From an uncultured delta proteobacterium (GTDB lineage: Bacteria > Desulfobacterota > Desulfovibrionia > Desulfovibrionales > Desulfovibrionaceae): a stretch of 64,000 nt of DNA. The DNA lies in the NCBI GenBank assembly GCA_903843965.1, contig CAIMRY010000013.1, positions 1-64,000 of the forward strand, written 5' to 3'. Shown one piece after another: positions 15,875 through 35,970 of the stretch. Each line of letters opens with the position of its first letter. The stretch's first letter is position 1. The notes below the pieces were generated by a model, which saw only the letters and a program-made list of their open reading frames with translations, was not told where the DNA came from and made no database searches. A program made the position numbers and the translations under genes.

Positions 15875-15953
15875 CCTGTCAACCGGTAATTTTTGTCTTT
15901 TTTCCGGCCAAAAACGGGTGATTTTTGTCCAGGCCGATTTGCGGGTGTATGCT
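15875..15953 (+). promoter_or_regulatory. Shared 79-bp promoter element, copy A (before Bbp19-like gene)
   Basis: It starts with CCTGTCAA, then an ATTTTTGTC box, TTCCGGCCAAAAACGGGT, a second box TTTTTGTCC (15922-15930) and a TATGCT -10 17 bp further. It ends 20 bp before the ATG at 15974. It is the same element as copies B, C and D and has the same 79-bp length as B and C. Confidence 0.85.
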
Positions 15954-15973
15954 TGCGCAAACAGGAGGATCAC

Positions 15974-16213
15974 ATGCGTGAACAGACAGACTTGCACCTG
16001 GCCTATGTCCGGGCTTTTGCAGGGGAGGCCGGGCGGCTTGTCCTGGCCGACCTCTCCCGGCAGGGCTTCCTGCGGCAGACGAGCTTCCACCCGGACCCGC
16101 AGCGCGCGGCCTTCAACGAGGGCCGCCGCAGCCTGGCGCTGCACATCCGGCAGATGATCGACGGGGCAACGCCGAGCCGCCAGGCGACCCTGCCCAGCCC
16201 GGATGCGCCCTGA
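15974..16213 (+). CDS. Phage Bbp19-like protein
   Basis: The protein has 79 residues. ATG 15974 follows AGGAGG. It has an N-terminal helix and FNEGRRSLALHIRQMI, the motif of the small Bbp19 family found between portal/terminase and capsid genes of short-tailed phages such as Bordetella BPP-1. Here it stands alone as a one-gene unit under promoter copy A, with no portal or capsid gene beside it. Confidence 0.65.
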   Translation: MREQTDLHLAYVRAFAGEAGRLVLADLSRQGFLRQTSFHPDPQRAAFNEGRRSLALHIRQMIDGATPSRQATLPSPDAP

Positions 16214-16306
16214 TCTGGACGGGCGACGCGGGCGGCGCTGCGAAAGGCTGACCCGGAGCCTGCGGGAAGCTGCGGCGCTGTGCGCCTGCGCAGATGGTGG
16301 ACGCCG

Positions 16307-16358
16307 GAGGATTCAAGCCAGAGGGTTCAGGCCAGAGGATTCAGTCGGAGGATTCAAC
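16307..16358. repeat. Short degenerate direct repeats
   Basis: Four variants of a 13-15 bp GGAGGATTCAAxCCAGA-like unit lie in the non-coding stretch after the Bbp19-like gene. No function is visible. Confidence 0.5.
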
Positions 16359-16429
16359 CTAGGTGGAACATGGCAGCAAAGACGCGGCCCGCCCAGAACC
16401 AGACGGACGGCCCCTGCCGGGCGCAGGAC

Positions 16430-16461
16430 AAAAAAAGAGGGGGGACCCGAAAGTCCCCCCC
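16430..16461 (-). terminator. Rho-independent terminator of the lipoprotein-like gene
   Basis: On the minus strand GGGGGGAC-TTTCGG-GTCCCCCC is followed by TCTTTTTTT, 23 bp after the stop of the 16484-16717 gene. Confidence 0.9.
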
Positions 16462-16483
16462 AGATGGTCAGATGCCTTGAGCC

Positions 16484-16717
16484 TTAGGGCTTCTTGGCTT
16501 CGGCCGGCTTGGCGGCTTCAGCGGCGGGAGCCGGGGCGGCAGCGGCGTCAGCGGGCTTCACGTCAGCGGGCTTGGCATCAGCAGGAGCGGCGGCAGGAGC
16601 CGGGGCAGGAGCGGCAGCAGCGGGCTCAGCCTTCTTCTCTTCGGCTTTCTTCTCACCGCAAGCGGAGACACCAAGGGCCAGGGACGCAACGATCATGACG
16701 GCGAACAGCTTCTTCAT
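16484..16717 (-). CDS. Small Ala/Pro-rich lipoprotein
   Basis: The protein has 77 residues. MKKLFAVMIVASLALGVSAC is a lipoprotein signal with lipobox GVSAC; the mature part is EKKAEEKK followed by Ala/Pro/Lys/Asp repeats (PADAKPADVKPADAAAAPAP). This is a flexible periplasmic spacer with no catalytic domain. It has AGAGAGGAAGG upstream and a strong terminator downstream. It sits between two phage-promoter units but is on the other strand and lacks the shared element. Confidence 0.8.
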   Translation of the reverse strand: MKKLFAVMIVASLALGVSACGEKKAEEKKAEPAAAAPAPAPAAAPADAKPADVKPADAAAAPAPAAEAAKPAEAKKP

Positions 16718-17045
16718 GGGAACCTTCCTCTCTAAAGTGGTGGTGATAAAACACAGACACGAAATTCATGCACCTCCGGCGAAAGTCCCACCTGGGACCC
16801 AATCCCACGGCCGTTTGCCCCAAGGCTGGCGATCCGTGGGAGCCGGAGAGGAGGTTTCGGCTTCGACACACGCACGCGGTTGTGCCGCGAACGCAGGCGG
16901 GTCCGTACCCTCACGCGCAGTCATTATACCCGTTGCCCATGGTTGGCAACAAAAAAGTCAGGCATTCATTGGCAACCCGGTACATTCCATAATAGCGCAG
17001 CCGCAACTGCAACCTGCCAAAAAATCAGGATAAAGGAGCACATTT
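16718..17045. other. Divergent intergenic region of 328 bp
   Basis: It holds the leader of the lipoprotein gene (minus) and the promoter region of the 17046 gene (plus). A TTGGCA and a CATAAT occur at 16968-16997, a possible weak sigma-70 promoter at short spacing for 17046. The minus-strand leader is long (over 100 nt) and can fold, but no known riboswitch was recognised. Confidence 0.35.
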
Positions 17046-17411
17046 ATGACCATCGCCGCTGAAGCTGTAGCGCATCCTTTCCTTTCTTGCCTGCCAGATC
17101 CCTCGCGACTGCGGCATTTTTCCCTCTTTGACGCGGCCGGACCCTACGCCGCAGCAGCCCTGGCCGAACACCCGGACGCCCTGGAGCTGCACCTGGTCGT
17201 GCTGCGCTTTGGCCCGGCCACGGTGCGCGCCCTGCGCGCCGACATGGAGGAGCTCAAGCGCATGGCCAGGGACCTTGGAAAATCGCGCATTGTGGGCCTG
17301 CGCGTGGAGCCGGGGCCAGAGGCCGACCAGCGCTGGCCCAAGTTCACGCGCCTGTTCGGCTTCACCGGCCAGCGGGTGCTCCAGGCGGCGGAGCTCATCC
17401 TGACGGAATAA
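17046..17411 (+). CDS. GNAT-like phage-type protein of uncertain function
   Basis: The protein has 121 residues; ATG 17046 has AAAGGAG upstream. The C-terminal WPKFTRLFGFTGQRVLQAAELIL resembles the end of phage acetyltransferase-fold proteins (T7 gp13 type), where KxxRxFGF precedes a last strand. The N-terminal SCLPDPSRLRHFSLFDAAGPYA fits a recruitment or host-related segment. No acetyl-CoA loop is evident, so enzymatic activity is doubtful. It lies immediately upstream of promoter copy B. Confidence 0.45.
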   Translation: MTIAAEAVAHPFLSCLPDPSRLRHFSLFDAAGPYAAAALAEHPDALELHLVVLRFGPATVRALRADMEELKRMARDLGKSRIVGLRVEPGPEADQRWPKFTRLFGFTGQRVLQAAELILTE

Positions 17412-17412
17412 C

Positions 17413-17491
17413 CCTGTCAAGGGGGTATTTTTGTCCTTTTACCGGCCAAATGTGGGTAATTTTTGTCCAGCCGCAAAACATGGGGTATACT
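17413..17491 (+). promoter_or_regulatory. Shared 79-bp promoter element, copy B (before scaffold gene)
   Basis: CCTGTCAA, first TTTTTGTCC, TTTTACCGGCCAAATGTGGG, second TTTTTGTCC, then 17 bp to TATACT (17486-17491). It starts right after the stop of the GNAT-like gene and lies 69 bp before the ATG at 17561. Confidence 0.88.
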
Positions 17492-17560
17492 GTCCCAGCG
17501 CCCGGCCCGGCATGGGGCCGCGTCCGGGCCTGCACACAACCCTTGCTCAAGGAGACCATC

Positions 17561-18448
17561 ATGTCTGATGCCCCCACTCCGGCCCAGAAACGTTCCCCGG
17601 CCCAGACCCCGCCCCCTGGCGACTGGCGCGCGGCCCTGCCTGCAGAGATCACCGCCCCCGGCCGCGACGAGACCGGCCGCGAGACCCAGATTCCCCTGCG
17701 CCAGCACCCGGCCCTGGCCAAGTACGCCTCGCCCGGGGAGGCCCTGAAGGCCCTGGTGCACGCCCAGCGCCTGCTGGGGCGCAAGACCGAGCCCGAGGGC
17801 TCGCTCTTGTCCCAGGGATTGTCCCAGGCTGCGTCCATGGACGGGAGCATGGATGGCCGCCCGGAATTGCCGGACGCCTACCAACTGCCCGACGTGCCCC
17901 TGCCCGAGGACTTCCGCGTGGACGAGACCCTGCGCAGCGCGTTTTTGTCAAAAGCCCATGAACTGGGCCTGACCGACGCCCAGGCCGGTGGCCTGTACTC
18001 CTGGTTCCTGCCGCTCAACGTCGAGGGCATGCGCGCCCATGCGCAGCGGGTGGCCACAGAGCGCACGCAGCGCCGCGAGCGCGAGCTGTCCGGCCTGCGC
18101 CAGGCCCATGGCGGCGATGCCCTGGCCGTGCTGGAGTCCGCGCGCAAGGCCGTGCTGGCCCTGGGCGGGCAGAAGCTCATGCAGGCCCTGGAGCAGAGCG
18201 GCGCGGCCGACGACGCCTGCGTGCTCCAGGCCTTTGCGCGCATGGCCCCGCTGGTGAGCGAGAGCTCGCTGCGCGGCAGGAACCCCGGGCCCGCAGCCAG
18301 CCTGACCCCGCAGCGCCTGCGCGAGATGATGCGCGATCCGCGCTACTTCGACCCGGCGCGCCGCGACCCGGACTTTGTGCGCCAGGTGCAGCAGGGCTTT
18401 GAGTCCCTGTACCCCGGCGAACAGACCACGGCCACCCGCGCCTCCTAA
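17561..18448 (+). CDS. Phage capsid scaffold/assembly protein
   Basis: The protein has 295 residues. AAGGAG precedes the start. The order is: disordered Pro-rich N-terminus; HPALAKYASPGEALKALVHAQRLLGRKT; then LPDAYQLPDVPLPEDFRVDETLRSAFLSKAHELGLTDAQAGGLYSWF, the usual scaffold layout in short-tailed phages; then a charged helical region; and a C-terminal RLREMMRDPRYFDPARRDPDFVRQV. Scaffold proteins direct procapsid assembly. It is the only gene of its unit, driven by promoter copy B, and no major capsid gene follows before the convergent hairpin. Confidence 0.75.
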   Translation: MSDAPTPAQKRSPAQTPPPGDWRAALPAEITAPGRDETGRETQIPLRQHPALAKYASPGEALKALVHAQRLLGRKTEPEGSLLSQGLSQAASMDGSMDGRPELPDAYQLPDVPLPEDFRVDETLRSAFLSKAHELGLTDAQAGGLYSWFLPLNVEGMRAHAQRVATERTQRRERELSGLRQAHGGDALAVLESARKAVLALGGQKLMQALEQSGAADDACVLQAFARMAPLVSESSLRGRNPGPAASLTPQRLREMMRDPRYFDPARRDPDFVRQVQQGFESLYPGEQTTATRAS

Positions 18449-18469
18449 CCCCGCACAGCCCCGAACGGC

Positions 18470-18505
18470 GACGGCCCGGTCAGGTGTATTCCTGGCCGGG
18501 CCGTC
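18470..18505. terminator. Hairpin between the scaffold unit and the tail/lysis operon
   Basis: GACGGCCCGG (18470-18479) and CCGGGCCGTC (18496-18505) form a perfect 10-bp stem between convergent units. The core is shared with hairpins at 4833 and 37737. Confidence 0.65.
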
Positions 18506-18612
18506 TGGCGTTGTGGATCGTGCCGTGCGCCTGTCTGTTCGGTGCGCCCGGGTTGATGTGTTTGCTCCGCCGCGCTCCGGCGCCGGGCTTGGCCAAGGCT
18601 TTGGTCAGGCGG

Positions 18613-19023
18613 CTACAGCTCCCGCAGCCGCGCCGCCAGCCGCTCTGCCCGTGGGCCAACCTGCTGCGCCCATTTGGAGCGCAGCATCTCCGCTGCCGCC
18701 TCGGCGTAGCGCCCGGCCCGCAAGTGCTCCAGGGTCTGCCGGAAGGCCAGCACCCCGGCCAGGCCCAGGTTGAAGCACATGTTCGCCAGCACCTCCTGCA
18801 CGGCCTCGGGCGCGGTTGTAACCCACGGCAGTCCGGCCTCCAGCCGGGCCCAGCAGTCCTGGATGTCGTTGTCCAGCAAAAGCAGGGCCTCGGCCTCGGT
18901 CAGGCCCCGGTCGTCCAGGTTGCGGCCCACGCCGATGGTCAGCTTCCCGGCGGTGCAGCGGTAGGGCTTGAGCCGCAGGCCCTCGTCGCGCAGCAGGTCC
19001 TGGGCCAGGCGGCGCGCGTTCAT
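18613..19023 (-). CDS. Phage-type lysozyme (GH24)
   Basis: The protein has 136 residues. LLRDEGLRLKPYRCTAGKLTIGVGRNLDDRGLT contains the Glu-8aa-Asp/Cys-5aa-Thr-like catalytic region of T4-type muramidases (catalytic Glu at about residue 14), and the downstream helices fit. It lacks a signal peptide, so it needs the neighbouring holin to reach peptidoglycan. It overlaps the holin gene by 4 bp and ends the tail/lysis operon. Confidence 0.88.
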   Translation of the reverse strand: MNARRLAQDLLRDEGLRLKPYRCTAGKLTIGVGRNLDDRGLTEAEALLLLDNDIQDCWARLEAGLPWVTTAPEAVQEVLANMCFNLGLAGVLAFRQTLEHLRAGRYAEAAAEMLRSKWAQQVGPRAERLAARLREL

Positions 19024-19436
19024 CGGCCCGCGCCCTTGACCTTCTCGCCACCCAGCTTCTCGATGGTCCGCAGGCCGCCCATGCCGAGCATGCCGAACAT
19101 CAGCTGCCAGAGCATGTCGTCCAGCGCCGGGTGCAGCGGCGCGCCGGGCCACCACACGCCGGAGGCCCAGGCCCACAGGGGCCGCACCAGATACTGGAAG
19201 CACAAGGCCGCCGCGCAGACCCAGCCGATGGCCGGCCGCCACCCAGCCACAAACAGCGACGGGCTGGCGGCCTCGGCCTTGTTGATGTCGCGCTGGTCGG
19301 CCTCGGCCTTGGCCGCGATGTCGAGCAGCGCGCGCTGGTAGTCCTCTGCGGCCTTGGCCCTGGCGCCGGGGTCCGGGATCAGGTCGAGCAGCTTCTGGGC
19401 CGCCGCGCCGATGACGGGGATGAGTTCAAGCAGCAT
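19020..19436 (-). CDS. Holin of the 3TM (GTA_holin_3TM) type
   Basis: The protein has 138 residues. LIPDPGARAKAAEDYQRALLDIAAKAEADQRDINKAEAASPSLFVAGWRP, then hydrophobic segments at about 70-92 and 110-125, match the family named for gene-transfer-agent release holins (also found in ordinary phages). It forms inner-membrane lesions that free the lysozyme encoded next to it. ATGA overlap with the lysozyme gene. Confidence 0.85.
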   Translation of the reverse strand: MLLELIPVIGAAAQKLLDLIPDPGARAKAAEDYQRALLDIAAKAEADQRDINKAEAASPSLFVAGWRPAIGWVCAAALCFQYLVRPLWAWASGVWWPGAPLHPALDDMLWQLMFGMLGMGGLRTIEKLGGEKVKGAGR

Positions 19437-19526
19437 GGTATCCTCCTTGTGTGCCGGGGCTGATGTTTCAGGGCTGATGTATTGGTCCGGTCATGCAGGG
19501 CTGGCGTTCGGCGTTGCCCGGCTGGG

Positions 19527-19910
19527 CTATTTCAGCACCATCCGCAGCACGGACGGCCCCACGAGCTGCAGCACCAGCCCCGCGCCCAGGCCCACGTAAA
19601 CATGGAAACGCAGGCGGTTCACCGCGCTCCACAGGTCCGCGCGCTCGTTCAGGTGCTCCTCCCGCGACTGCACATGGGCCTCGCGGTGCTGGTCCGCCCC
19701 GCGCTCCAGGGCGGACAGGCGCTCGGCCTGGCGGGCGCACAGCTCGCGCCGGGCCACCTGGGACTCGGCGATGCGCAACAGCGTCTCGCCGTTGGCGCGG
19801 GACTGTTCGGCCACGGCCTCGATGCCCACGCGCATCTGGTCCTTGAGGCCCAGCAGCGCGTCGCGGATCTGCTCCATGAACTGGTCGTGGAAGGCGCAGG
19901 GCTGTTGCAT
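19527..19910 (-). CDS. Phage coiled-coil membrane-anchored protein
   Basis: The protein has 127 residues. The start at 19910 gives MQQPCAFHDQFMEQIRDALLG. A long charged heptad-like coil (about 10-95) precedes one C-terminal membrane helix (FHVYVGLGAGLVLQLVGPSVLRMV). This resembles XhlA-like or other lysis-module accessory proteins. It lies about 90 bp upstream of the holin in the same operon. Confidence 0.6.
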   Translation of the reverse strand: MQQPCAFHDQFMEQIRDALLGLKDQMRVGIEAVAEQSRANGETLLRIAESQVARRELCARQAERLSALERGADQHREAHVQSREEHLNERADLWSAVNRLRFHVYVGLGAGLVLQLVGPSVLRMVLK

Positions 19911-19920
19911 GGCCGCCTCC

Positions 19921-20259
19921 CTACCCGGCGGGCCGCAACCGCGCGCGGTCGTCCACACAGGCCTGGAACGAATCCACAGCCTCCCAGCTGGCGGGCAGGC
20001 GCAGGGCTTCCGGGTGCGCGGGCGCCGTCACCGCAGCCATGCCCAGGAATTCGCCGTCCGCGCCGATCATCGGGCGGTCTTCGGCATACGCAGGCACGTC
20101 GACAACCACCGAAGGGAAGGCCGAGGGCGTCAGCCCGGGCGTGGCCATGTAAGCCGTACGCTGGGCCTCGTCGGTCCAGTCCACCACGGCGCAGCCCTGC
20201 GGCAGCGCGGCCAGCAGGGCGCGGGAGAGTTCAACTTCAGGATGATGCACGAGAATCAT
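19921..20259 (-). CDS. Phage tail-fibre-associated hypothetical protein
   Basis: The protein has 112 residues; AAGGAG precedes the ATG at 20259. MILVHHPEVELSRALLAALPQGCAVVDWTDEAQRTAYMATPGLTPSAFPSVVVD and LPASWEAVDSFQACVDDRA resemble small proteins often encoded after tail-fibre genes. Function is unknown. It lies between the Gly-rich appendage gene and the lysis genes. Confidence 0.6.
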   Translation of the reverse strand: MILVHHPEVELSRALLAALPQGCAVVDWTDEAQRTAYMATPGLTPSAFPSVVVDVPAYAEDRPMIGADGEFLGMAAVTAPAHPEALRLPASWEAVDSFQACVDDRARLRPAG

Positions 20260-20270
20260 GGGTGTCTCCT

Positions 20271-21380
20271 TTAACTGATGGTGAAGATGTTGACCGAACC
20301 GGCCCCGCCAGCGCCGCCGTGCGTATTGCCGCCAGTGGTGTACGGCCCGCCAGCGCCACCAGGGGCGGCCACGGTTCCAAGATTGGCGTAGCCCCCGGCG
20401 CTTGTCGCAATGACGACCACGCCGCCGCCAGCGCCGCCGCCGCCACAACCGGAGGTCGCTCCGTTCGGCGAGCCCCCCGTGGCCCCGGCGGACGAAATGG
20501 AGCAGCCGGAACCGACGGATACTGCGGGGGAGAACAGCATCAACACGCCGCCGCCAGCGCCGGGACTCCCGGCCCCACCCGTTCCGTTCAGTCCAGGGGT
20601 GTCGCCCGCGCCGCCGCCGGAGGAGTAGGGCGTGTTTCCCGGCCCGGCATTGCCGCCGGGGCCGCCGTACGCAGCGCCCGCATCCGCTATGGCGGACAGG
20701 GGCACCTGGGAGCCGCCGCCGCCGCCAGCGCCGCCGCAGCAGGGACCGCCCTTGCCTCCGAAGCCGGGCTTTCCCCAGCCGCCGCCGTTTCCACCGCCGC
20801 CCGTGCCGCCGCCGCCGCTTTGCATGGCTGTGGCCGCTGCGCCCGTGGCACCGGCAAGGGGGTCGGTGTATGTGCACGTTGCTCCAGCCGCGCCCTCGCC
20901 CTGGACAACGTAGGCCTCCAGGGCAGACTTCTTGAGCTTCCCACGAAAGGCATTGGGGGTGAGATCGTAGGCCGTGAGGTTGCCGAAGTTTCCAGCCTTG
21001 CCCAAATAGTTGATGTGGCACGTTCCGCCGTTCAGCAGTTGCACCTTGGTCTTGGCGAAGACGATGAGGCCCTTGCTGTTGGTGGAGGGCTTGAGCCAGC
21101 CGCCATCGATGATAAGGGTGTCGCACAGGACCACGCTGGCCCCGGTGTCGGCATCGGGCGCAACCATGGCCGCTGCGGTGATGGTGAGCACCCCGTTCAC
21201 CGGCTGGAGCACGCTGCCGCCCTGGATGATGTTGCCGGAGTATGAGCCGTCGCCGAAGAGCGACTGCGCGCCGCCCAGGGGGCCGGGAGGCAGGCCCCCG
21301 GCCCCGCCGGGCCAGCCCCCGCCGCCGCCGTGGGACGCCATGCTGCGCAGGCCCGCGCCCGCGTGCGAGGCCAGGCGCAT
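20271..21380 (-). CDS. Gly-rich tail appendage/adhesin-like protein
   Basis: The protein has 369 residues. It has a short N-terminus, then a beta-rich region (GSYSGNIIQGGSVLQPVNGVLTITAA, DTLIIDGGWLKP), then a long Gly/Ala-rich C-terminal half (GGGGTGGGGNGGGWGKPGFGG) that recalls polyglycine-rich phage receptor-binding tips. It starts 2 bp after the preceding structural gene. It probably forms the distal part of the fibre. Confidence 0.65.
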   Translation of the reverse strand: MRLASHAGAGLRSMASHGGGGGWPGGAGGLPPGPLGGAQSLFGDGSYSGNIIQGGSVLQPVNGVLTITAAAMVAPDADTGASVVLCDTLIIDGGWLKPSTNSKGLIVFAKTKVQLLNGGTCHINYLGKAGNFGNLTAYDLTPNAFRGKLKKSALEAYVVQGEGAAGATCTYTDPLAGATGAAATAMQSGGGGTGGGGNGGGWGKPGFGGKGGPCCGGAGGGGGSQVPLSAIADAGAAYGGPGGNAGPGNTPYSSGGGAGDTPGLNGTGGAGSPGAGGGVLMLFSPAVSVGSGCSISSAGATGGSPNGATSGCGGGGAGGGVVVIATSAGGYANLGTVAAPGGAGGPYTTGGNTHGGAGGAGSVNIFTIS

Positions 21381-21382
21381 GG

Positions 21383-21799
21383 CTAGTACTTCCCGCCGCG
21401 CGCAAAGACCCACATCTTCTTGCCGCTGGTGGGCGCGGCTGCGGCCTGGGCGCGGATGGACCAGCCCGGAGGCAGGTTCAGGAACTTGTTGCCGCTGGCG
21501 TCGGTCTGCACGTGGCTGGCCAGCATGGCGTGGGCCATGATGTTCACCGGGGCGAGGGCGTTGGTCATGCCGCTGGTGAGCGGAATCTTGACCGTGGCGG
21601 CCTTCTTGCTGGCCGTGCCGTCGTGGAACAACAGGATCAGGTCCTTGTCCGCCGTGTCGTCGGTGGACACGGCCAGCACGTCCGCGCGGGTGCTCTCCGC
21701 CACATCGCCCGCGAAGACGACGGATTCGGTGGTGTCGGACAGTTCCGTGATCTTGCCCGTGATGGTGCCGATGAAGATGGGGTTGGTGTTCGCTGCCAT
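21383..21799 (-). CDS. Phage structural protein of unknown role
   Basis: The protein has 138 residues. MAANTNPIFIGTITGKITELSDTTE, then beta-rich sequence with NALAPVNIMAHAMLA and NLPPGWSIRAQ. It looks like a small trimeric decoration or fibre-attachment protein. It lies between the fibre N-terminal gene (3 bp) and the Gly-rich gene (2 bp), in tight operon order. Confidence 0.55.
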   Translation of the reverse strand: MAANTNPIFIGTITGKITELSDTTESVVFAGDVAESTRADVLAVSTDDTADKDLILLFHDGTASKKAATVKIPLTSGMTNALAPVNIMAHAMLASHVQTDASGNKFLNLPPGWSIRAQAAAAPTSGKKMWVFARGGKY

Positions 21800-21802
21800 G
21801 GT

Positions 21803-22705
21803 CTACATGCCTCCCAGGAGTGCGTGGTTGAAGACGCGGCCGGCCACCATGGCCGGTCGCAGGGTCGCATTGGTGGAGAGCTGGTCCGGGCCGGAGCCCA
21901 GGTCCGCCGCCAGGCCCGAGGTTGTGCGGGCAAGGCCGCCGCCCGTGGCCACGCGCGCGCGCAAGAGCCCGGCGGCCAGCTCAAGGCCGGGGTCCTGGCC
22001 CAGGGCGATGGACAGCCGCAAGGCCTCGTCCGCGCCGGGGGAGAGCAGGGTCTCGGCCAGACCGTCGCCTGCGGCCAGCTTGGCCGAAAGCTGGCCCGGC
22101 GTGGTGTCGGCTGCGCTCACGCGCAGGCCGTTCACAGCGCCCTGGGCCTGCACGGCATAGCCCTGGGCTTGCGCGACGTGGCCCTGGGCCAAGGCGGCCT
22201 GAGCCTGGGCCTGGCTGGCGGCCTCCCCGGCCTGGGTCCCGGCGGCCAGGGCCGTGGCGCGGGCGCTTTCGCAGGCGCCGAGAAAGGCCGTGCTGTCGCG
22301 GATGTCCATCTGCGGGGTGCTCACGGGATAGACCACGGCGCGGCCCAGCCTTTCGTCCAGGGCCTGGCAGATCATGGTCAGAAGATCGAGGGCGGCCTCG
22401 TGGGTCTCCGCCGGGAAGGCCGCATTCTCCACATAGTCCACCTCCTGCACGATGGCCGGGTCGCGGTAGAGCACCAGGGTCTGGCCCGTGGCCGGGGGTT
22501 CGGCCAGGGCTAGGCTGCCGCCCGCCGGGCTGCCCGCGCCGGAGAGGCCGTAGTGCGTGCCGGACAGCAGCGGGGTTTCCGCGCCGTCCTGGCGCAGCAG
22601 AACCTTGATGTCGTCCTCGCGCATGAAGGGAAAGGGCACGGGGAACACGGTGGTGGCTCCGTTGCCGGTGTAGGAGGTCTTGGAGGTCTGGGTGGACAGG
22701 GTCAT
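21803..22705 (-). CDS. Tail fibre protein with T7-like N-terminal domain
   Basis: The protein has 300 residues. Residues 1-130 (TSYTGNGATTVFPVPFPFMREDDIKVLL, GTHYGLSGAG, LVLYRDPAIVQEVDY, AALDLLTMICQALDERLGRAV) match the T7 gp17-type adaptor that attaches a fibre to a short tail. An Ala/Gln-rich coiled coil (about 145-190) and a beta-rich end follow. This supports a podovirus-like particle. Confidence 0.8.
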   Translation of the reverse strand: MTLSTQTSKTSYTGNGATTVFPVPFPFMREDDIKVLLRQDGAETPLLSGTHYGLSGAGSPAGGSLALAEPPATGQTLVLYRDPAIVQEVDYVENAAFPAETHEAALDLLTMICQALDERLGRAVVYPVSTPQMDIRDSTAFLGACESARATALAAGTQAGEAASQAQAQAALAQGHVAQAQGYAVQAQGAVNGLRVSAADTTPGQLSAKLAAGDGLAETLLSPGADEALRLSIALGQDPGLELAAGLLRARVATGGGLARTTSGLAADLGSGPDQLSTNATLRPAMVAGRVFNHALLGGM

Positions 22706-22731
22706 CTGGGGGCTCCTTCTGGGTTGGTGGG

Positions 22732-24882
22732 CTATTCGTTGATGGCCAGGGTGGGCGCCACAAGCAGCACGGTCATGGGCAGGGGCTGGTCCTGGACCAC
22801 GGTGAGCACGCCGTCCGTGCCCCAGCCCTGGGGAAAGCGCACGGACTTGTCGCCGCTGAACAGCGCGGGCGGCCCGTCCATGGCGTCGGCGCTGGTGCGG
22901 TAGAGCAGCGGCTCAAGGTTCCCGATGCCCGGCCCGACCTTGCCGCCCAGGCTGCGGTGCAGCCGCACCGAGACCTCGATGATGCGCTTGGTGCGCGTCT
23001 GCGAACTGCCGCGCGCCCCGGAGAACTCCAGGCGCATGGGTTTGAGCACCGAGGTGTAGGCCAGGCCCGCGTGCACCTGGTTGGCCGGGCGCGGCAGGCT
23101 GATGGCCCCCTCGGCCGACACGGTGGTCTCGGGCAGCACTGCGCCGTCGGCCAAAACCTGCACCCGGCGTCCCGCCAGGTGGGCCAGCCCGGTCAGTTCG
23201 CTCACCGCCGCGCCCGCGTAGCTCAGTCCCGCGTCGAGGAAAAAGGCCTCGCTGGCGCTCACCGCATCCTCGGAAAAGGCGGGCTCCAGCGTCTCGATGA
23301 AGCGGCGGACCAGGGGCTCGCCCCCTGGATTCGCCGGGTCTGGCACGCTGCGGCGCACCACCAGCCAGAGTTCGTCGCGGCCCTGGGCGTCGTTTGAGAC
23401 CACGCACGCGGCCTCCACTGCGCCGTCGGTGATGATGCGCGAAAAGGCGCAGACATCCTGGTCCGGCAGGTAGGTCATGGCCACCAGCACGCCGTCGGCC
23501 CGTACGCAAAAGAGGATCGGGTCCGGCTCCTGGGCGAAGGCCAGCTGCGTCAACCCCGGCGCGGCCACGTGGGCCGAGAGCAGGGTCAGGTCGCGCGAGG
23601 TGTAGGCGTCGGACTCGAAGCGGTAGGCCATCTCGCGCACCTTGCGCCCGGAGCGCTGCACAAACAGCGTGGCGTGGCCCGCCGCGCAGACGCAGGCCTG
23701 GGCCGCGCCGCTGGTGCCCTGGCGGTCGGCCTTGACCCCGCCGGGGGTCACCGGCGCGCCCAGCGAGCCGCCGGACACGGTCCACTCGCCGCTGCTGGTG
23801 CCGATCCAGAGCTTGTCGCGCGGGGCCAGGAAGCAGATGCGCCCGCCCTGCTGGGCCGAGAGGGTGATCTCCAGGCCGTCGTCGTCCAAGGGGTCGTCGC
23901 CGGGATCGGCCTCGATGCGCTCGCCCACGGCGAACTCCTCCCAATAGTCGGCGTTGAGCGCTCCATCCGCCGTGCGCACGCTCTCGATCTCCGCCGTGGT
24001 GCCCGGCGCGTCGCGGAAGGTGGCCCGCAGGGAGCCGCTTGACGCCGTGATGATGCGCTGGCCGGTGTAGCGGTAGTACTGCGGGGTGGCGTCGCCCGCC
24101 TCGTCGTAGACATCGCCGCACAGGGCCGACCTCTGGCTGAAGGCGTCGCCGCTTAAGAGCAGGAAGGTGTCGCCCGCGCGGCCGTCGGCCCGTGAGTCGC
24201 CGGAGCCGTCGGCGATCTCGAAGTCGTCCCAGCCGGAGAGCGGCACCTCCCGCGTGCACAGCCGGAAGTCCCGGTGCCCGGAGGTGCGCGAAAACCACAG
24301 GGTGAAGGGCTCGTTTGTGGTGGCCGCAAAGACCAGACGGTCTTCGTGCAGGCAGCACAGACCCGGCCAGTTGGCCTCGCCCCAGGTGGCCGGGATTTCC
24401 GTCAGCTCCAGCTCGGCCAGGGCGAAGCCGCCCGTCTCCGTGCGGGTGAGCACCTGCGGGGCCACCAGCGGGTGGGTCAGGATCAGCTCCTGGCGGTCCT
24501 GCACGGCGCGCAGCTCGCTTAAGTGCGCCGCAAGGTAGGGCGTCTCCAGCTCCAGCACCTGGCTTTCGGCGTCGAGCACGCGGCCGCCGTCGTAGAAGAA
24601 GCGCAGCACCCCCCGGCCCGCCGGGCTTTCGCCAAACTCCAGCACCCAGGCCTTGCCCATGGCGTCCTCAAAGGACAACAGCACCGAGGGCGTGGCGTGG
24701 CGCACCGCGTCGCCCACGTAGCGCATGCCGCTGCGCCGGGTGATGCCGCCGTGCGGGTGCACCAGGAAGTTCTCCAGGGTCTGGCAGCCGTTGAAGTATT
24801 TGGCCACGTCCACGCGGCCGTAGAGCCGGGGCGAAAGCTCCCCGGAGGTGAAGTTGGTCAGGATCATTGGCACGAGGGACAT
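22732..24882 (-). CDS. Short-tail tubular/stabilisation protein (podovirus type)
   Basis: The protein has 716 residues. The N-terminus NFTSGELSPRLYGRVDVAKYFNGCQTLENFLVHPHGGITRRSGMRYV is the hallmark of tail tubular B-like nozzle proteins of podoviruses; the rest is beta-rich with CFLAPRDKLWIGTSSGEWTVSG and a long C-terminal region. It is the largest structural gene here and shows that the particle has a short, non-contractile tail. Confidence 0.85.
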   Translation of the reverse strand: MSLVPMILTNFTSGELSPRLYGRVDVAKYFNGCQTLENFLVHPHGGITRRSGMRYVGDAVRHATPSVLLSFEDAMGKAWVLEFGESPAGRGVLRFFYDGGRVLDAESQVLELETPYLAAHLSELRAVQDRQELILTHPLVAPQVLTRTETGGFALAELELTEIPATWGEANWPGLCCLHEDRLVFAATTNEPFTLWFSRTSGHRDFRLCTREVPLSGWDDFEIADGSGDSRADGRAGDTFLLLSGDAFSQRSALCGDVYDEAGDATPQYYRYTGQRIITASSGSLRATFRDAPGTTAEIESVRTADGALNADYWEEFAVGERIEADPGDDPLDDDGLEITLSAQQGGRICFLAPRDKLWIGTSSGEWTVSGGSLGAPVTPGGVKADRQGTSGAAQACVCAAGHATLFVQRSGRKVREMAYRFESDAYTSRDLTLLSAHVAAPGLTQLAFAQEPDPILFCVRADGVLVAMTYLPDQDVCAFSRIITDGAVEAACVVSNDAQGRDELWLVVRRSVPDPANPGGEPLVRRFIETLEPAFSEDAVSASEAFFLDAGLSYAGAAVSELTGLAHLAGRRVQVLADGAVLPETTVSAEGAISLPRPANQVHAGLAYTSVLKPMRLEFSGARGSSQTRTKRIIEVSVRLHRSLGGKVGPGIGNLEPLLYRTSADAMDGPPALFSGDKSVRFPQGWGTDGVLTVVQDQPLPMTVLLVAPTLAINE

Positions 24883-24897: not shown

Positions 24898-25479
24898 TTA
24901 GTAATCGAACGCGGAGCCGCCGCCCCAGCCATCAGAACCACTTTGACCGGTGGGGAAGGTCGTGGGATACCCGCCAAGGCCTCCGACCTTGCCGCCGCCG
25001 CCAAAGACCTGGCCGCCCAGGCGCAGCAGGGAGCCCAGGCCATTGTCATCCGTGCGGCTGCGCCGACCGGACAGGCGGATGCTCTGGGCCTGCTCGGCCC
25101 CGCTGGCCAGGATGTCGTCCACGCGGCGCGAGGAATCGCCCAGGAGCTGGCCCAGCTGGTCCTCCTGCTGCTGCTCCTGGCTTTCCAGGTTCAAGAGCGA
25201 GGTGCCGGAGAGCGTGAGCCCGGACCCAGCGGCGGCCACGCGGGCGCGCGCCCGGCGGTGCTGGTTGTCCTCGCGCAGGGCCTCGGCCTTTTCGCGGGCG
25301 CTCAGCTGCACGGCCTCGGCCTGGCGCTTGGCCTGGGCCTCCGCAGTCTGGGCGCGCAGCTCGGCGGCCTCGCTGATCTCGCTGCCGCCGCCGCTGCTGA
25401 CGGCGCTATTCAGCACGCCCTTCAAGATGCCTGTGCCCAGATTGATGGCCGTGGGCATGACAGTGCTCACTCCTTCCAT
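24898..25479 (-). CDS. Internal virion-like protein
   Basis: The protein has 193 residues from ATG 25479 (GGGAGG upstream); a second ATG at 25458 is possible. It begins with a Gly/Ser-rich helix, then a long Ala/Gln/Glu/Arg-rich coiled coil (about 40-85), the block GSGLTLSGTSLLNLESQEQQQEDQ, and a Gly-rich tail. This layout is common in podovirus internal core proteins encoded between the GNAT-like and nozzle genes. It overlaps the upstream gene by 13 bp. Confidence 0.6.
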   Translation of the reverse strand: MEGVSTVMPTAINLGTGILKGVLNSAVSSGGGSEISEAAELRAQTAEAQAKRQAEAVQLSAREKAEALREDNQHRRARARVAAAGSGLTLSGTSLLNLESQEQQQEDQLGQLLGDSSRRVDDILASGAEQAQSIRLSGRRSRTDDNGLGSLLRLGGQVFGGGGKVGGLGGYPTTFPTGQSGSDGWGGGSAFDY

Positions 25480-25940
25480 GTGCGGAACCTCCCGTAGAGA
25501 TTGTGGGTTGCCTGGCCGGACTGCGCTGGCCCGAAGCCGGGGCAGCGGCCCTCCAGGGTGAAGCCAAGGTGCGCGGCGAAGCGGTTCGCCCGGCTGTCGT
25601 CCTCGCGCGCGTGGAGCTGCAGCCTGTGGAAGCCGTGCTCCCGCGCCAGGGACTCGACCACGCGCCGGGCCAGCCGGGCAAAGGCCAGGGGGACCAGGTC
25701 CACGTCCTGCCCGGCCCAGCACCAGCACTCGCCCACCCCGGGCCAGAAGCGCACCGCCCCGCCGCAGGCGATGACCCGGTCCCCGCACAGCACGGTCCAG
25801 GCCGGACCGGCGGCGTGGTAGCCGCGCGCCAGCTCGGCCAGGGGCGGCAGCCCCTCCAGGGCCTGGGCCGCGCCGGGCCGAAGGCGGAGGGACTGCGCAT
25901 GGGCGGGCAGGAAGGGCAGGGCCAACAGGGGTTGGGGCAT
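25467..25940 (-). CDS. GNAT-fold phage protein (T7 gp13-like position)
   Basis: The protein has 157 residues, first gene of the tail/lysis operon. The order AGPAWTVLCGDRVIACGGAVRFWPGVGECWCW..., ARRVVESLAREHGFHRLQLHAREDDSRANRFAAHLGFTLEG follows a GNAT fold, with the LGFxxEG end. In T7-like phages a GNAT-like protein (gp13) is encoded just before the internal virion genes. Acetyltransferase activity is not shown by the sequence. Confidence 0.65.
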   Translation of the reverse strand: MPQPLLALPFLPAHAQSLRLRPGAAQALEGLPPLAELARGYHAAGPAWTVLCGDRVIACGGAVRFWPGVGECWCWAGQDVDLVPLAFARLARRVVESLAREHGFHRLQLHAREDDSRANRFAAHLGFTLEGRCPGFGPAQSGQATHNLYGRFRTWKE

Positions 25941-25993: not shown

Positions 25994-26072
25994 AGTATAC
26001 CCCTGCTTTTGCCGCAGGACAAAATTTACCCATTTTTGGCCGGTAAAAGGACAAAAATTCCCCCTTGACAGG
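25994..26072 (-). promoter_or_regulatory. Shared 79-bp promoter element, copy C (tail/lysis operon)
   Basis: Read on the minus strand: CCTGTCAA, first TTTTTGTCC, TTTTACCGGCCAAAAATGGG, second box ATTTTGTCC, 17 bp, TATACT. It lies 54 bp upstream of the GNAT-like gene and has the same length and spacing as copies A and B. Confidence 0.88.
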
Positions 26073-29251: not shown

Positions 29252-29457
29252 TGTCCGCCTTCATCTTTCAATCAGCAGCCACCCCGCCGCAATTTTTTAC
29301 CATTTTTCTAGACATATTTTCACAGACCCGTCAAGCGCTGGCAAAAGGATTCTCCTTCCGAGCCTGCGCCAATTCAGACAGGAACGGTTCTTGACATCGC
29401 CGGGCCAGGACCATAATGTATAACACTAACTATTCATCAAAAGGGTCGTGAATTCCT

Positions 29458-30911: not shown

Positions 30912-30960
30912 GGCCTGGCCTCTGTTGGCTTCAGTTGGCCTCAGCTGGCCTCAGCTGGCC

Positions 30961-32559: not shown

Positions 32560-32797
32560 GTAGCGAGCCTCCCTTGGGGTGGATGCGTCCCCAGGGGAAT
32601 TGCAAGAAGCGCTCCGGCTTCAAAATACCCTTCGCCCCCGTGCCCCTGCGGGGCACCGCGCCCTTTCGGCACCGGTCAAATGCCGGTTTAATGCCGGTCC
32701 GAGCCGGTTCCGGGTCGGTTCCGGGTCGGGCCTGGGCCCAGGTCCGGGCGGGGTCCCGCACTTTGACAAACCTCGCCAAGTATGGCTTTGTGCAGCC

Positions 32798-34492
32798 ATG
32801 AAAAAGCCCGGAGTCTTCGGCACCCTGGACCCCTTCCTGGAGATCGGCCCCATCCTGGGCCGCAAGGTGGCCAACACCGGCTTTTTGCGCTTTCTGCTGG
32901 CGGCCGACCCCTTTGAGCACTACCACTTCTTCTTGTCCGACAAGCCCATGCGCGACTCCGTGGCCGAGATCGTGGCCGGGCTCGCGCCCGGCATCGCCGC
33001 GCGCGGCGGCTTTGTCCTCATGGACCGGCGCGAGCTGCCAGAGCGCCTGAAGACCACGCACTATGCCTGCTTCCACCAGTCCGACTGCATCAACAGCCCC
33101 ACGCACATCGCCCGCCTGCGCAACGCCTACGCCCCGCGCCTGTTCCCCATCACCGGGCCCATCCACTCCCTGTCCTACCCGGACTTTCCGGCGGCCTTTC
33201 TGCGCCACCTCTGGGCCGGGGCCACCCCGCAGGACTGCATCATCGCCACCTCCCGCGCCGGGCAAAAGGCTGTGGAGGCCTTTTTCGCCCACCTGCGCCA
33301 GGGCTACGGCTTGGCTGGCGTGCCCGGCCCCAGCATCCGGCGCATCCCGCTCGGCCTGGACCCGGAGGCCGTGGCCGCGCCCCTGCCCACGCCCGAGGCC
33401 AAGCGGGAGCTGCGCCGCAAGCTCGGCCTGCCGGTTGCGCGCACCCTGATCCTGGTGCTGGGCCGCATTTCGCATTCGTCGAAAATGGACGTGGTGCCGC
33501 TGATCCGCGCCCTGTCCCGCCTGTGCGACGAGGGCCTGGCGCGGGATTCCGCAGCGCTGGTGCTGGCGGGCTGGGCCGACGAGGGCGACGACTTTCCGCA
33601 GAGCCTGGTCAACCTGGCAGGCAAGGTGGGCCTGACCGCCTGCCTGGAGCTGCGCCCCGGCGAGCGGCGCAAAGCCGAGATCCTGGCTGCCTGCGACCTT
33701 TTCGTGTCCATCGCCGACAATCCGCAGGAGACCTTCGGCCTGACCCTGCTGGAAGCCCAGGCCGCCGGGCTGCCGGTCATCGCCTCGGACTACGACGGCT
33801 ACCGCGACCTGGTGGCGCACGGGGTCACGGGCCTGCTGGTTCCCACCCTCGGCCCTGACCCAAAAGGACCGGACCCGGTGAAACCGGACGCAGACACCGA
33901 CGCCGTGGACCTCCTTGCCCCGCTGTTGTTCGACAACCAGTACCACCTGCTGCTGGCCCAGCGCACCGCCGTGGACGCCCCGGCCCTGGCCGAGGCCCTG
34001 GGCGCGCTTCTGGCCGACCCGGAGCTGCGTCGACGCATGGGCGCGGCCGGGCGCGAGCGCATGGCCGCAGGCTTCCTCTGGCCGCAGGTGGTGGCCCGGC
34101 ACCTGGAGGTCTGGGACGAGCTGGCCGCCCTGCCCGGGCCGGACATCGAGACCCTGCGCCACGTGCCGCACCCCCTGCACCTGCCCTACGCCAAGGTCTT
34201 CGCCAGCTACCCCACGCGCACCCTGCGGCCCGAAACGCGGCTCTGCGCCGGGCGCGCGGGCCAGGCCCTGCTCAAGGGCAAGGAGCACCCGCTGCTCTAC
34301 GCCGGGCTGGACCAGGTGCTGGACCCGGACGCCATCCGCAAGACCGTGTTCCTGGCGCGCAACGGCGCAACCGCAGCCGAGGTGGGCCTGCGCCTGCGCG
34401 AGCTCTGCCCAGGCCTCTCGGCAGACCGCGCCGAATTCCACATCCTCTGGGCCGTGAAGCACGACCTGCTGCAAACTGTCCGGGAGCCCTGA
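32798..34492 (+). CDS. GT4-type glycosyltransferase
   Basis: The protein has 564 residues. The catalytic part has LILVLGRISHSSKMDVVPLIRAL, LAACDLFVSIADNPQETFGLTLLEAQAAGLPVIASDYDGYRDLVAHGVTGLLVPT, the EX7E region of GT-B family 4 enzymes that bind the nucleotide sugar. The C-terminal 120 residues form an extra helical domain. ATG 32798 is chosen because the upstream frame is repeat-like non-coding sequence. It overlaps the next glycosyltransferase gene by 1 bp (TGATG). It probably builds a surface polysaccharide. Confidence 0.85.
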   Translation: MKKPGVFGTLDPFLEIGPILGRKVANTGFLRFLLAADPFEHYHFFLSDKPMRDSVAEIVAGLAPGIAARGGFVLMDRRELPERLKTTHYACFHQSDCINSPTHIARLRNAYAPRLFPITGPIHSLSYPDFPAAFLRHLWAGATPQDCIIATSRAGQKAVEAFFAHLRQGYGLAGVPGPSIRRIPLGLDPEAVAAPLPTPEAKRELRRKLGLPVARTLILVLGRISHSSKMDVVPLIRALSRLCDEGLARDSAALVLAGWADEGDDFPQSLVNLAGKVGLTACLELRPGERRKAEILAACDLFVSIADNPQETFGLTLLEAQAAGLPVIASDYDGYRDLVAHGVTGLLVPTLGPDPKGPDPVKPDADTDAVDLLAPLLFDNQYHLLLAQRTAVDAPALAEALGALLADPELRRRMGAAGRERMAAGFLWPQVVARHLEVWDELAALPGPDIETLRHVPHPLHLPYAKVFASYPTRTLRPETRLCAGRAGQALLKGKEHPLLYAGLDQVLDPDAIRKTVFLARNGATAAEVGLRLRELCPGLSADRAEFHILWAVKHDLLQTVREP

Positions 34493-35787
34493 TGCCGACG
34501 TCCACGCCAACGTCCACGCCAACGCCCACGCCAACGACCACGACCAGCTCCCCGTCCGTCCTGCACCACGCGGCGCTGAAGCACCGGGGCGGGGCCGTGC
34601 GCGTGGCCCGGCTGCTCCTGGCCGCGCAACGCTCCGCCGGGGTGGACGCGCGCTATTCCTATGAGGTGGAGGAGAACGATCCTGAGAATCTGGGGCCAGA
34701 GAACTTGGGGCCGGAGAACCTGGGGCCCGGCGCTGCCGCCCAGGCCGCCAGTCCCACAGCAGCAAACGGCCGTGCCGCCGACCCCCATGCCGCCGACCCG
34801 GCGTCCTCCGACCCTGCGTCCGGCGGCCAGCACACCCAGCCCGCCGCCCTGGCCCGACGCGCGGCGGAGCGGCCCCCGCACGGCGTGGTCCACCTGCACA
34901 CCAGCACGGACTGGCCCGCCCTGCTCGAAGGCCTGCTGGACTCGGGCACCGCCTCCGGGCTCATCCTCACCCTGCACGACGCCACGCCGCTGACGGGCGG
35001 CTGCGCCTACCCGCTGTCCTGCCCGCACTTCCCGGTCTGCGCCGACCCCTGCCCGCGCGGCTTCCCCTCGGCCCGCCTGCGCCAGGCCCACACCACGCGG
35101 CTGTTGCAGCGCCTGGACCCGGTGCTGGTCAGCCCGTCGCGCTGGCTGGCCAGCTTGGCCAAGGCAGCCCTTCCCGGCGCCAATGTGCGCGTGGTTCCCA
35201 ATGGCGTGCCCTGGCCCGATCTGGCCGCCCTGCCCAAAAAGGCCGAGGCCCGCGCTGCGCTCGGCATCGCGCCCGGGGTTCCCGTGGCGTTGTTCGCGGC
35301 CCATGGCGGCGCGCGCGCGGCGTACAAGTCCGGCCCGGCCTGGCCGGAGCACTGGGCGCGCCTTGAGGCTGCCGTGCCCGGCGCGGTCGGCTTCGCCGTG
35401 GGCGGTGACGAAGCAGCGCGCTCCGGCGGGCTGACCATCTGGCCCTACCTGGACCGCGCCAAACTGACCCTGCTCCTGCGCGCGGCAGACTGCCTGGTCT
35501 ATCCCACCCTGGCCGACAACCACCCCCTGGTGCTGCTCGAAGCCGCAGCCTGCGAGCTTGCCGTGGCCAGCTTCCGCGTGGGCGGCGTGCCAGAGATCGT
35601 CCGCCACGGCGAAACCGGGTTCTTGGCCGACCCCGGCGACACCGATGCGCTCCTCGCCCATGCCGCCAACCTGCTGGCCCAACCCGCCCTGGCCCGCAGC
35701 CTGGGCCGCAACGCCCGCGACCAGGGCGGCAAACGCTTCACAGCCGAACGCATGGCTGCGGACTACAGCAAGCTGCTGGGAGAATAG
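34492..35787 (+). CDS. GT4-type glycosyltransferase with repeat inserts
   Basis: The protein has 431 residues. It has LHHAALKHRGGAVRVARLLLAAQRSAGVDA, VHLHTSTDW, ILTLHDATPLTGGCAYPLSCPHFPVC, PSRWLA, VPNGVP and CLVYPTLADNHPLVLLEAAACELAVASFRVGGVPEIVRHGETGFLADPGD (EX7E). The Cys-containing HDAxPxTGGCxY block is typical of one GT4 subgroup. Non-conserved repeats sit at the N-terminus (TPTSTPT) and at about 62-76 (PENLG three times). Operon with the preceding gene. Confidence 0.88.
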   Translation: MPTSTPTSTPTPTPTTTTSSPSVLHHAALKHRGGAVRVARLLLAAQRSAGVDARYSYEVEENDPENLGPENLGPENLGPGAAAQAASPTAANGRAADPHAADPASSDPASGGQHTQPAALARRAAERPPHGVVHLHTSTDWPALLEGLLDSGTASGLILTLHDATPLTGGCAYPLSCPHFPVCADPCPRGFPSARLRQAHTTRLLQRLDPVLVSPSRWLASLAKAALPGANVRVVPNGVPWPDLAALPKKAEARAALGIAPGVPVALFAAHGGARAAYKSGPAWPEHWARLEAAVPGAVGFAVGGDEAARSGGLTIWPYLDRAKLTLLLRAADCLVYPTLADNHPLVLLEAAACELAVASFRVGGVPEIVRHGETGFLADPGDTDALLAHAANLLAQPALARSLGRNARDQGGKRFTAERMAADYSKLLGE

Positions 35788-35831
35788 CCTCCGGCGGTCG
35801 GGGGCAGCGGCCCCCGAACCCCCATCATGCG

Positions 35832-35874
35832 CCGAAGGGGCTGCTTCAGGAGGAACCTGAAGCAGCCCCTTCGG
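35832..35874 (+). terminator. Terminator of the glycosyltransferase operon
   Basis: CCGAAGGGGCTGCTTCAGG pairs along its full length with CCTGAAGCAGCCCCTTCGG over an AGGAA-type loop, followed by CTTGTG. It separates the operon from promoter copy D. Confidence 0.85.
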
Positions 35875-35890
35875 CTTGTGCGGGCCAAAC

Positions 35891-35970
35891 CCTGTCAACC
35901 CGCTATTTTTGTCCTTTTACCGGCCAAAAACGGGTGCTTTTTGTCCTGGGCCAAAAGCCCATGCTATATT
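35891..35970 (+). promoter_or_regulatory. Shared 80-bp promoter element, copy D (before M15/partner pair)
   Basis: CCTGTCAA, TATTTTTGTCC, TTTTACCGGCCAAAAACGGG, second TTTTTGTCC, 18 bp, TATATT (35965-35970). It differs from copies A-C only in the spacer, one base longer. It lies 27 bp before the ATG at 35998. Confidence 0.88.

Follow-up and report, generated by a model that had tools for sequence, protein, structure and literature searches.

The window analysed here, a 64,000-nucleotide stretch at the start of contig C13 (CAIMRY010000013.1) of an uncultured delta proteobacterium of the Desulfovibrionaceae, carries four copies of an element of about 80 bp that is probably the common promoter of a multi-locus regulon resembling a gene transfer agent (GTA). 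The observations behind this reading are the element itself, its positions, the gene content that follows it, its conservation, purifying selection on the virion genes and the co-divergence of capsid and host. The system bears on how a scattered GTA stays together and fires as one program, and on how a clustered phage becomes a dispersed host organ.

An earlier, sequence-only reading of the window had placed four element copies, and each was confirmed at the position given for it, aligning over the described lengths of 79, 79, 79 and 80 bp:

15875..15953, + strand: promoter element copy 1, before the Bbp19-like gene (73.0 bits)
17413..17491, + strand: promoter element copy 2, before the scaffold gene (78.8 bits)
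25994..26072, - strand: promoter element copy 3, before the tail/lysis gene row (79.0 bits)
35891..35970, + strand: promoter element copy 4, before a toxin-like gene (84.3 bits)

The core pattern matched the window at exactly four places and had no match in 100 dinucleotide shuffles. The element has the form CCTGTCAA - N6 - ATTTTTGTCC - TTTTACCGGCCAAA - AACGGGTGA - TTTTTGTCC - 17/18 bp - TATACT, so that the recurring layout described earlier stood, except that the two TTTTTGTCC-type boxes are 32 bp apart and not the 31 bp claimed. We measured this geometry on 70 copies, 25 from the genome that contains the window (hereafter the own genome) and 45 from relatives. The 32-bp box-to-box distance was kept in 63 of the 70, with 3 more not measurable, and the spacing of 17 or 18 bp to a TATACT-like -10, also part of the earlier claim, was found in 63 of 66 measurable copies; TATACT itself was matched at 5 or 6 positions in 55 of 66. 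Information content across 22 own-genome copies rose just 5′ of CCTGTCAA and dropped to background past the -10, in an alignment whose -10 anchoring is off for at least two copies (L013, L014). The -35 position reads TTGTCC, a poor match to sigma70, and the conserved block reaches about 50 bp further upstream; this combination of a degenerate -35 with conserved upstream boxes suggests an activator-dependent promoter layout. The left end of the element reads CCCTGTCAACAGGG in some copies (L013, L015) and in operons of the genus g14; this perfect dyad would suit a dimeric regulator.

Across the own genome, a degenerate pattern detected 22 copies at three or fewer mismatches, and its reversed control detected none. 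A sequence model built from those 22 copies, with 150 of 1458 candidates scored in the genome scan, returned 25 strong copies (E ≤ 2.1e-11) on 11 contigs and five weaker rows (E 6e-4 to 0.19). Nine strong copies belong to virion units, namely those of the large terminase (TerL), portal, capsid, tail tubular protein A (TTP-A), the window tail/lysis row, scaffold and Bbp19-like genes, together with two in tandem at the small terminase (TerS). The remaining 16 stand before toxin-like genes, of which five are METES, four RKKSN, one MLKDS and six RHS (the types are described below); for three RHS cases at contig ends (C19:291310, C23, C34:65461) the assignment comes from a common leader or from the first codons. 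Gene maps showed 24 of the 25 leading into a virion or toxin-like gene, the 25th being the tandem upstream copy at the TerS locus. The element thus precedes both the phage structural genes and the M15/partner pair that the sequence-only reading had joined in one regulon. The further copies predicted before portal, terminase and capsid genes were found for all three, and at 16 toxin-like loci as well, rather than genome-wide before unrelated genes.

Some loci of this survey had features of their own. Four contigs (C3, C19, C23, C34) break off within an element-led RHS or RKKSN gene or shortly before one, and our tally of such loci may therefore be too low. Among the weaker model rows, C14:39325 precedes another METES gene, and C43:151618, C5:17545 and reverse-strand C19:284416 lay outside the gene-context survey. 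C22:19244 (16.9 bits; L110:6245-6926) precedes a 175-amino-acid protein with a weak minor head protein match (phrog_115, E 0.0015), followed by small secreted-looking proteins that are possibly a further toxin-like locus. The TerS element lies behind an opposite-strand small exported-protein gene, about 520 bp before TerS (L102:7820-9493, equivalent to C19:282819-284492); a second element with a similar small gene lies just upstream, and the layout of TerS element and opposite-strand small gene is repeated in L056, L068, L078 and L080.

The genes led by virion-unit copies are, judged by homology, the virion, packaging and lysis complement of a short-tailed phage. They include TerS (phrog_4044, 2e-16; no Pfam match at E 0.1), TerL (phrog_2, 4.8e-20), portal (PF12236, 1.9e-138), capsid (PF19821, 5e-75), an 82-amino-acid head protein (phrog_18004) and TTP-A (phrog_394, 1.1e-52), and in the window the following:

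15974..16213, + strand: 79-amino-acid Bbp19-like phage protein (PF25181, E 4.5e-18)
17046..17411, + strand: 121-amino-acid GNAT-like protein with no element directly before it (best PDB match a GNAT, E 5.9e-4)
17561..18448, + strand: scaffold-like protein (PF05396 T7 capsid assembly at 26.1 bits, cut-off 27.1; phrog_3742, phrog_458)
18613..19023, - strand: endolysin (PF00959)
19020..19436, - strand: holin (phrog_3427)
19527..19910, - strand: 127-amino-acid protein, conserved in the gene row
19921..20259, - strand: 112-amino-acid protein, conserved in the gene row
20271..21380, - strand: glycine-rich 369-amino-acid protein, conserved in the gene row
21383..21799, - strand: 138-amino-acid protein, conserved in the gene row, no family match
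21803..22705, - strand: tail fibre with fibre-type N-terminus (phrog_1640)
22732..24882, - strand: tail tubular protein B (TTP-B)-like protein (phrog_376, E 1.4e-152)
24898..25458, - strand: T7 gp14-like internal virion protein (PF24072)
25467..25940, - strand: GNAT-like internal virion protein (phrog_308, phrog_4177)

Homologues of the Bbp19-like protein sit between portal and scaffold genes in genera g5, g14 and g21. The 121-amino-acid protein has homologues next to TerL in g14 and g21 and, in the g5 genome G218, some 6 kb ahead of capsid. We considered the 121-amino-acid protein as a regulator and set it aside, as its model is GNAT-like instead (only two matches at E ≤ 0.001).

As expected of a GTA, the host genome thus contains phage-derived genes for capsid, portal, terminase and tail, dispersed among host genes in a form that is not packageable as one genome. 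Capsid, TerL, portal and TTP-B each had one match in the own genome, every one of them element-led. The virion genes form eight separately promoted units in six genome regions: three units on C6 (54 and 76 kb apart), one on C9, one on C19 and three on C13 within 10 kb, the last being the Bbp19-like, scaffold and tail/lysis units of the window. In the one-contig relative G139, TTP-B, capsid and portal lie at 1.70, 1.89 and 1.98 Mb. For capsid, TerL and portal, the annotated phages that come closest, Pelagibacter podoviruses and BcepC6B among them, all share less than 60% identity.

To follow the element beyond the own genome, we scanned GTDB genomes with a strict pattern, which yielded 36 stretches, belonging by record name to nine genomes; all the stretches are labelled as metagenome-assembled genomes of Humidesulfovibrio (13, one of them an isolate), Desulfovibrio, Desulfovibrionales/Desulfovibrionaceae, Deltaproteobacteria and Proteobacteria. 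The model detected 45 elements in these stretches, 30 before the same virion genes and 9 before toxin-like genes; five more run off their stretch (L058, L060, L070, L071, L073) and one is a partial 33.6-bit match without such a gene (L078). Both element and gene order were kept across relatives. The element is present in 21 of 247 genomes of the family and in 14 of the 15 of the own genus, where the telling counter-example named by the earlier note, relatives that carry the same genes without the element, did not appear; in the sole genus genome without an element, G168 (81% complete), capsid, TerL, portal and TTP-B were likewise without a match. Of those 247 genomes, 60 gave homologues of capsid, 27 of TerL, 171 of portal and 166 of TTP-B; for the last three, ordinary prophages may be among the distant matches. 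A second match, at 33-39%, was seen in some members of the genus (G083 portal, G110 TerL). Among the capsid matches listed, the only internal stop is in the second copy of G238. Five g5 genomes (G004, G156, G185, G228, G238) have a second capsid gene, 45-63% like our own, perhaps of related prophages.

The virion genes are under purifying selection: the ratio of nonsynonymous to synonymous substitution rates (dN/dS) was 0.17-0.51 in all 28 comparisons with relatives (codon bias uncorrected). Capsid identity followed the identity of the host protein Ffh with a rho of 0.92 over 33 genomes and 0.93 within the genus (n=11), in a set hand-picked from 59 other capsid-positive genomes, with points that are not independent, so that P values mean little. 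For TTP-B the rho against Ffh was 0.61 across all genomes compared and 0.75 among those of the genus (n=10), and for portal 0.85 across all, again in hand-picked sets of non-independent points. Vertical inheritance together with purifying selection, as expected of a GTA, is therefore found here, more weakly for TTP-B, and is unclear for portal within the genus. The elements themselves followed the same course. At virion loci, copies at the same locus in different genomes were 84% identical (78 pairs), and copies at different loci were 75.2% identical within one genome (93 pairs) versus 74.7% between genomes (532 pairs). As same-locus copies are more alike than same-genome copies, each is inherited in place and held by selection, not spread by transposition.

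The toxin-like genes behind the remaining elements fall into several types. METES proteins combine one N-terminus with an M15-type or Tlde1 domain (three pass the PF10908 cut-off), RKKSN proteins combine another N-terminus with an M15-type or CHAP-like domain (CHAP E 0.001, below cut-off), and RHS proteins have TEN_YD/RHS repeats. In L073 a METES-type start is joined to a CHAP-like C-terminus. A conserved N-terminus with exchangeable C-terminal toxin domains, the hallmark of polymorphic toxins, is thus present. The M15-type domain keeps N-x-NSG-x-R, H-x2-G-x-A-x-D and H-x2-H-x-H, and the five best rows for an M15-type protein model are the VldE zinc domain (E 3.5e-4 to 1.9e-3); predicted local distance difference test values (pLDDT) of that model are 68-93 in blocks over residues 121-240, with a whole-protein mean of 62. 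Pfam did not recognise M15 even at E 5, and the assignment rests on the invariant residues and the fold match. An NCBIfam scan of the toxin-like genes gave only RHS/YD-repeat names above noise. In the M15-type, Tlde1 and CHAP-like groups (RHS lay outside this comparison), the family of the downstream partner tracks the C-terminal domain and not the N-terminus; these matched downstream genes, likewise typical of polymorphic toxins, would encode putative immunity proteins. The following such genes lie in the window:

35998..36747, + strand: polymorphic toxin-like protein, METES N-terminus with a zinc M15/VldE-type C-terminal domain (E 3.5e-4)
36752..37696, + strand: its partner, a putative immunity protein of the M15-type family, with a signal-peptide-like N-terminus (by eye)
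3..965, + strand: second toxin-like gene, RKKSN-type N-terminus and M15-type C-terminus, cut by the contig start
1016..1960, + strand: putative immunity gene of the 3..965 toxin-like gene
2385..4808, + strand: further cassettes, comprising an immunity-like gene (2385-3293), an orphan M15-type fragment (3409-3786) and an immunity-like gene (3807-4808)

Positions 3-4808, at the start of C13, are a row of toxin-like/immunity-like cassettes whose promoter would lie past the contig end; that of the 3..965 gene is out of view because the contig start cuts the gene. Some toxin-like genes look damaged: the MLKDS frame departs early from its family, and where the C23 RHS copy would be expected to begin there is no standard start codon. 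Behind portal and behind TTP-A, in the same orientation, lie MPYDK proteins, whose N-terminus recurs in the MLKDS protein and which have a module in common with an RHS C-terminus; an MPYDK-type protein also follows portal in two relatives (L064, L065). In the own genome we rejected a reading of the toxin-like genes as type VI secretion system (T6SS) effectors, on the grounds that a search for the sheath gene came back empty: PF05943 had no match in it or in 10 others of the 15 genus genomes, and was present in four.

How the toxins relate to the particle can be read in more than one way. They might be co-regulated only, not cargo, and either leave the cell through the same lysis by holin and endolysin or get to non-immune neighbours by a different path. 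This is compatible with a GTA-like regulon, and we give it a little less than an even chance. Holin and endolysin do belong to the regulon, and several partners have signal-peptide-like N-termini (by eye), as expected of periplasmic immunity, but co-regulation leaves unexplained why toxin-like genes adjoin portal and TTP-A. Alternatively, the system may be an armed GTA, in which one switch would produce both DNA-carrying particles and an arsenal of peptidoglycan hydrolases and RHS proteins, with shared N-termini placing the toxins in or on the particle, and only recipients with matching periplasmic immunity surviving contact. We put this forward tentatively, as a possibility that we regard as somewhat doubtful; if true, DNA donation would be steered to kin or coupled to the killing of rivals.

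In other genera, we fetched regions around the genes, and one (L120) for a model match, and compared 16 of the 20 fetched stretches (255,716 bases), leaving out the g8 stretches L124, L125, L129 and L130. The own-genome model gave 16 matches at E ≤ 1, of which 15 lie 16-390 bp before members of the gene set (g5, g14, g21), one of these being an RHS gene that adjoins portal in G178; the sixteenth stands before an Lrp/AsnC-type gene. Operon upstream regions were also compared with one another. All 10 pairs among five operon upstreams in G013 beat all 780 control pairs, and all 6 pairs among four in G178 beat all 231 (the G178 portal operon start was hand-set at L122:6400, where the expected small gene was uncalled). 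Similarity was also high among the G218 operon upstreams, equalled by 3 to 6 of 861 controls, and between capsid and portal upstreams in G139 (equalled by 1 of 703) and G020 (0 of 136). G013 and G178 each have a lineage-specific element form common to all operons tested. The element before the same genes in other genera is, by these alignments, a diverged version of our own; it is not universal, and some homologous operons have no recognisable copy. The gene set spreads over a loose cluster of about 16 kb in G020, 60 kb in G013, about 170 kb in G178 and about 280 kb in G139, so that related genera show loosely clustered, intermediate and dispersed stages. In genus g40 (G231, G199) the islands are compact: a single stretch contains homologues of portal, TTP-A, TTP-B, holin and, weakly, TerL, with a fibre as well in G231, and the capsid family differs from ours. 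Alongside the g40 island L111 is a CI/S24-type repressor gene, with no counterpart tied to our loci.

Several observations weigh against a dispersed GTA-like regulon under one promoter. Our case is built from sequence alone, and particles, transcripts and DNA transfer are deduced from it. Within the genus, portal followed Ffh with a rho of only 0.46 (n=10, not significant). The three window units (15.9-26.0 kb) are still grouped, and distances between own-genome contigs are not fixed because the assembly is in 46 contigs. Integrase or replication genes were not recognised by eye in the gene-called stretches, where no family search for them was made. Among the genus matches listed, one stop had to be read through in the portal matches of G083, G153 and G175 and the TerL match of G110 (by gene call that of G083 is the terminal stop), and the G122 portal is in two pieces. 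The model had no match in three G139 regions, at the G013 capsid or in the g38/g40 islands. TTP-B upstream similarity in G139, where this operon is without a recognisable copy, was not raised or not clearly so (145 and 27 of 703 controls as high). The other five upstream pairs of G020 did not stand out (30-74 of 136), and its TerL and TTP-A are likewise without a recognisable copy. A 45-bit copy in G218 precedes an Lrp/AsnC-type regulator gene and not a virion gene, and beside the own-genome genes we found no dedicated regulator gene.

The last two observations are also what would be expected if a general host regulator (stress, SOS or Lrp-type) acted at the element rather than a dedicated GTA activator. 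We think this unlikely, as no strong own-genome copy was seen serving a gene outside the virion and toxin-like set, and as the lineage-specific element forms shared by all tested operons of G013 and of G178 are those expected of a dedicated regulator-site pair. The G218 copy itself (L120:5486-6302; this g5 genome is a single contig) stands some 240 bp ahead of the Lrp/AsnC-type gene, which is followed by an alanine-dehydrogenase-like gene (name by eye).

Less plausible still is a particle that serves as an antibacterial weapon, its phage-derived capsid and tail bringing the toxin-like proteins to competitors while DNA packaging plays a secondary part. The 16 of 25 elements before toxin-like genes, the MPYDK-type proteins after portal and TTP-A with modules common to a toxin-like N-terminus and an RHS C-terminus, the element-led RHS gene beside the G178 portal and the missing T6SS sheath match in 11 of 15 genus genomes, the own included, would all fit such a weapon. 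However, small and large terminase and portal are retained, which a DNA-free weapon would not need, and virion targeting of the toxin-like proteins is conjecture. A decaying, scattered prophage without present function is hardly credible: the clear phage origin, the host genes between units and the damaged look of some toxin-like genes speak for it, but dN/dS of 0.17-0.51, intact frames and conserved promoters and gene order speak against it. The probability that the element is a mobile repeat, such as an IS21-type transposon end that carries a promoter by chance, is close to nil, as, despite many dispersed copies with TGTCAA ends and repeated boxes, which we take to resemble transposon ends, no transposase lies beside the own-genome elements (PF01695 and PF00665 searched), the two IstB-family matches, one of them above cut-off, extend over 46 and 64 of 238 positions, the sole rve match is partial with a stop, all these matches are on element-free contigs, the element is bounded at its -10, its strong copies stand in virion or toxin-like context, and copies no more alike within than between genomes point to inheritance by locus. 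This rve match is a lone integrase-core fragment with an internal stop at L025 (C42:59083-59214).

Returning to the GTA-like regulon, we infer an activator, transcription from the element, DNA packaging and transfer, and toxin delivery and action, as follows. An ancestor would have domesticated a podovirus of the Pelagibacter-phage/BcepC6B kind, whose genes for virion, packaging and lysis would have become eight separately promoted units in at least six regions, each with a switch of about 80 bp. A dedicated activator would bind CCTGTCAA and the first TTTTTGTCC-CCGGCCAAA block, with RNA polymerase dependent on it; a repressor might instead act at the same site. With the activator present, virion units and some 16 toxin-like loci would fire together, resident terminases would fill particles with chromosomal DNA, and holin and endolysin would release them. 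With 25 copies in one genome and the element in 14 of 15 genus genomes, the site is precise enough to fish out the regulator, and GTA genes whose function is unknown could be recognised from the promoter alone. The toxin-immunity loci point to a possible, directly testable connection of gene transfer with kin discrimination in sulfate reducers.

RcGTA of Rhodobacter capsulatus has one main structural cluster plus outliers. Our virion genes have short-tailed phage homologues, unlike those of RcGTA. RcGTA resembles our system in its outlying loci (head spikes, tail fibres, lysis) and in a direct activator, GafA, near the -35, a GafA domain having bound a promoter fragment that contains the predicted -35; putative GafA sites are described at two of three outlying promoters, whereas here every virion unit has a long, near-identical promoter (PMC9638019). 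The Caulobacter GTA (GafYZ, IHF) has in common with our proposal a degenerate -35, an activator and further binding elements: in the model put forward for it, GafY helps sigma70 at the degenerate -35 of the GTA promoter, and swapping that -35 freed the promoter from its activator (PMC11150451). There, a GTA cluster promoter is controlled and the GafY motif was hard to predict from few enriched regions, whereas here 25 natural copies define the site (PMC11150451). In Brachyspira, BhGTA/VSH-1 is similar in that its single identifiable terL lies outside the delineated GTA cluster; its structural genes form a 16.3-kb cluster, and the available text mentions no shared promoter (PMC9662315).

With Dd1, the gene transfer agent of Desulfovibrio desulfuricans, our system has in common the bacterial family and phage-derived packaging and virion genes. 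Dd1 reportedly goes back to Rapp and Wall in 1987. Genus g40 may include D. desulfuricans, and its islands (L111, L112) may correspond to the Dd1 island; our capsid belongs to another family than theirs. The putative GTA island genes of Dd1 are Ddes_0703-0715 (PMC5701242) and the small terminase is Ddes_0720 (PMC6854486). As far as these sources go, the Dd1 genes form an island with the small terminase next to the large, whereas ours are dispersed and linked by one promoter.

Polymorphic toxin systems and T6SS peptidoglycan effectors (Tlde1, RHS) resemble our toxin-like loci in shared N-termini, exchangeable domains and matching downstream partners; unlike T6SS effectors, ours have a promoter in common with virion genes, in a genome where no sheath gene was found. 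Among the papers listed in literature searches on GTAs, Desulfovibrionaceae, polymorphic toxins and podoviruses, with capped listings and poor coverage of subscription journals, we found neither a GTA so dispersed under one promoter nor a GTA-linked toxin arsenal. GTAs tend to be encoded by multiple loci, and GTA small terminases without a DNA-binding domain are described (PMC11841831). Since multi-locus GTAs are already established (PMC11841831), what is new here is a variant, a GTA-like gene set dispersed under one promoter together with toxin loci.

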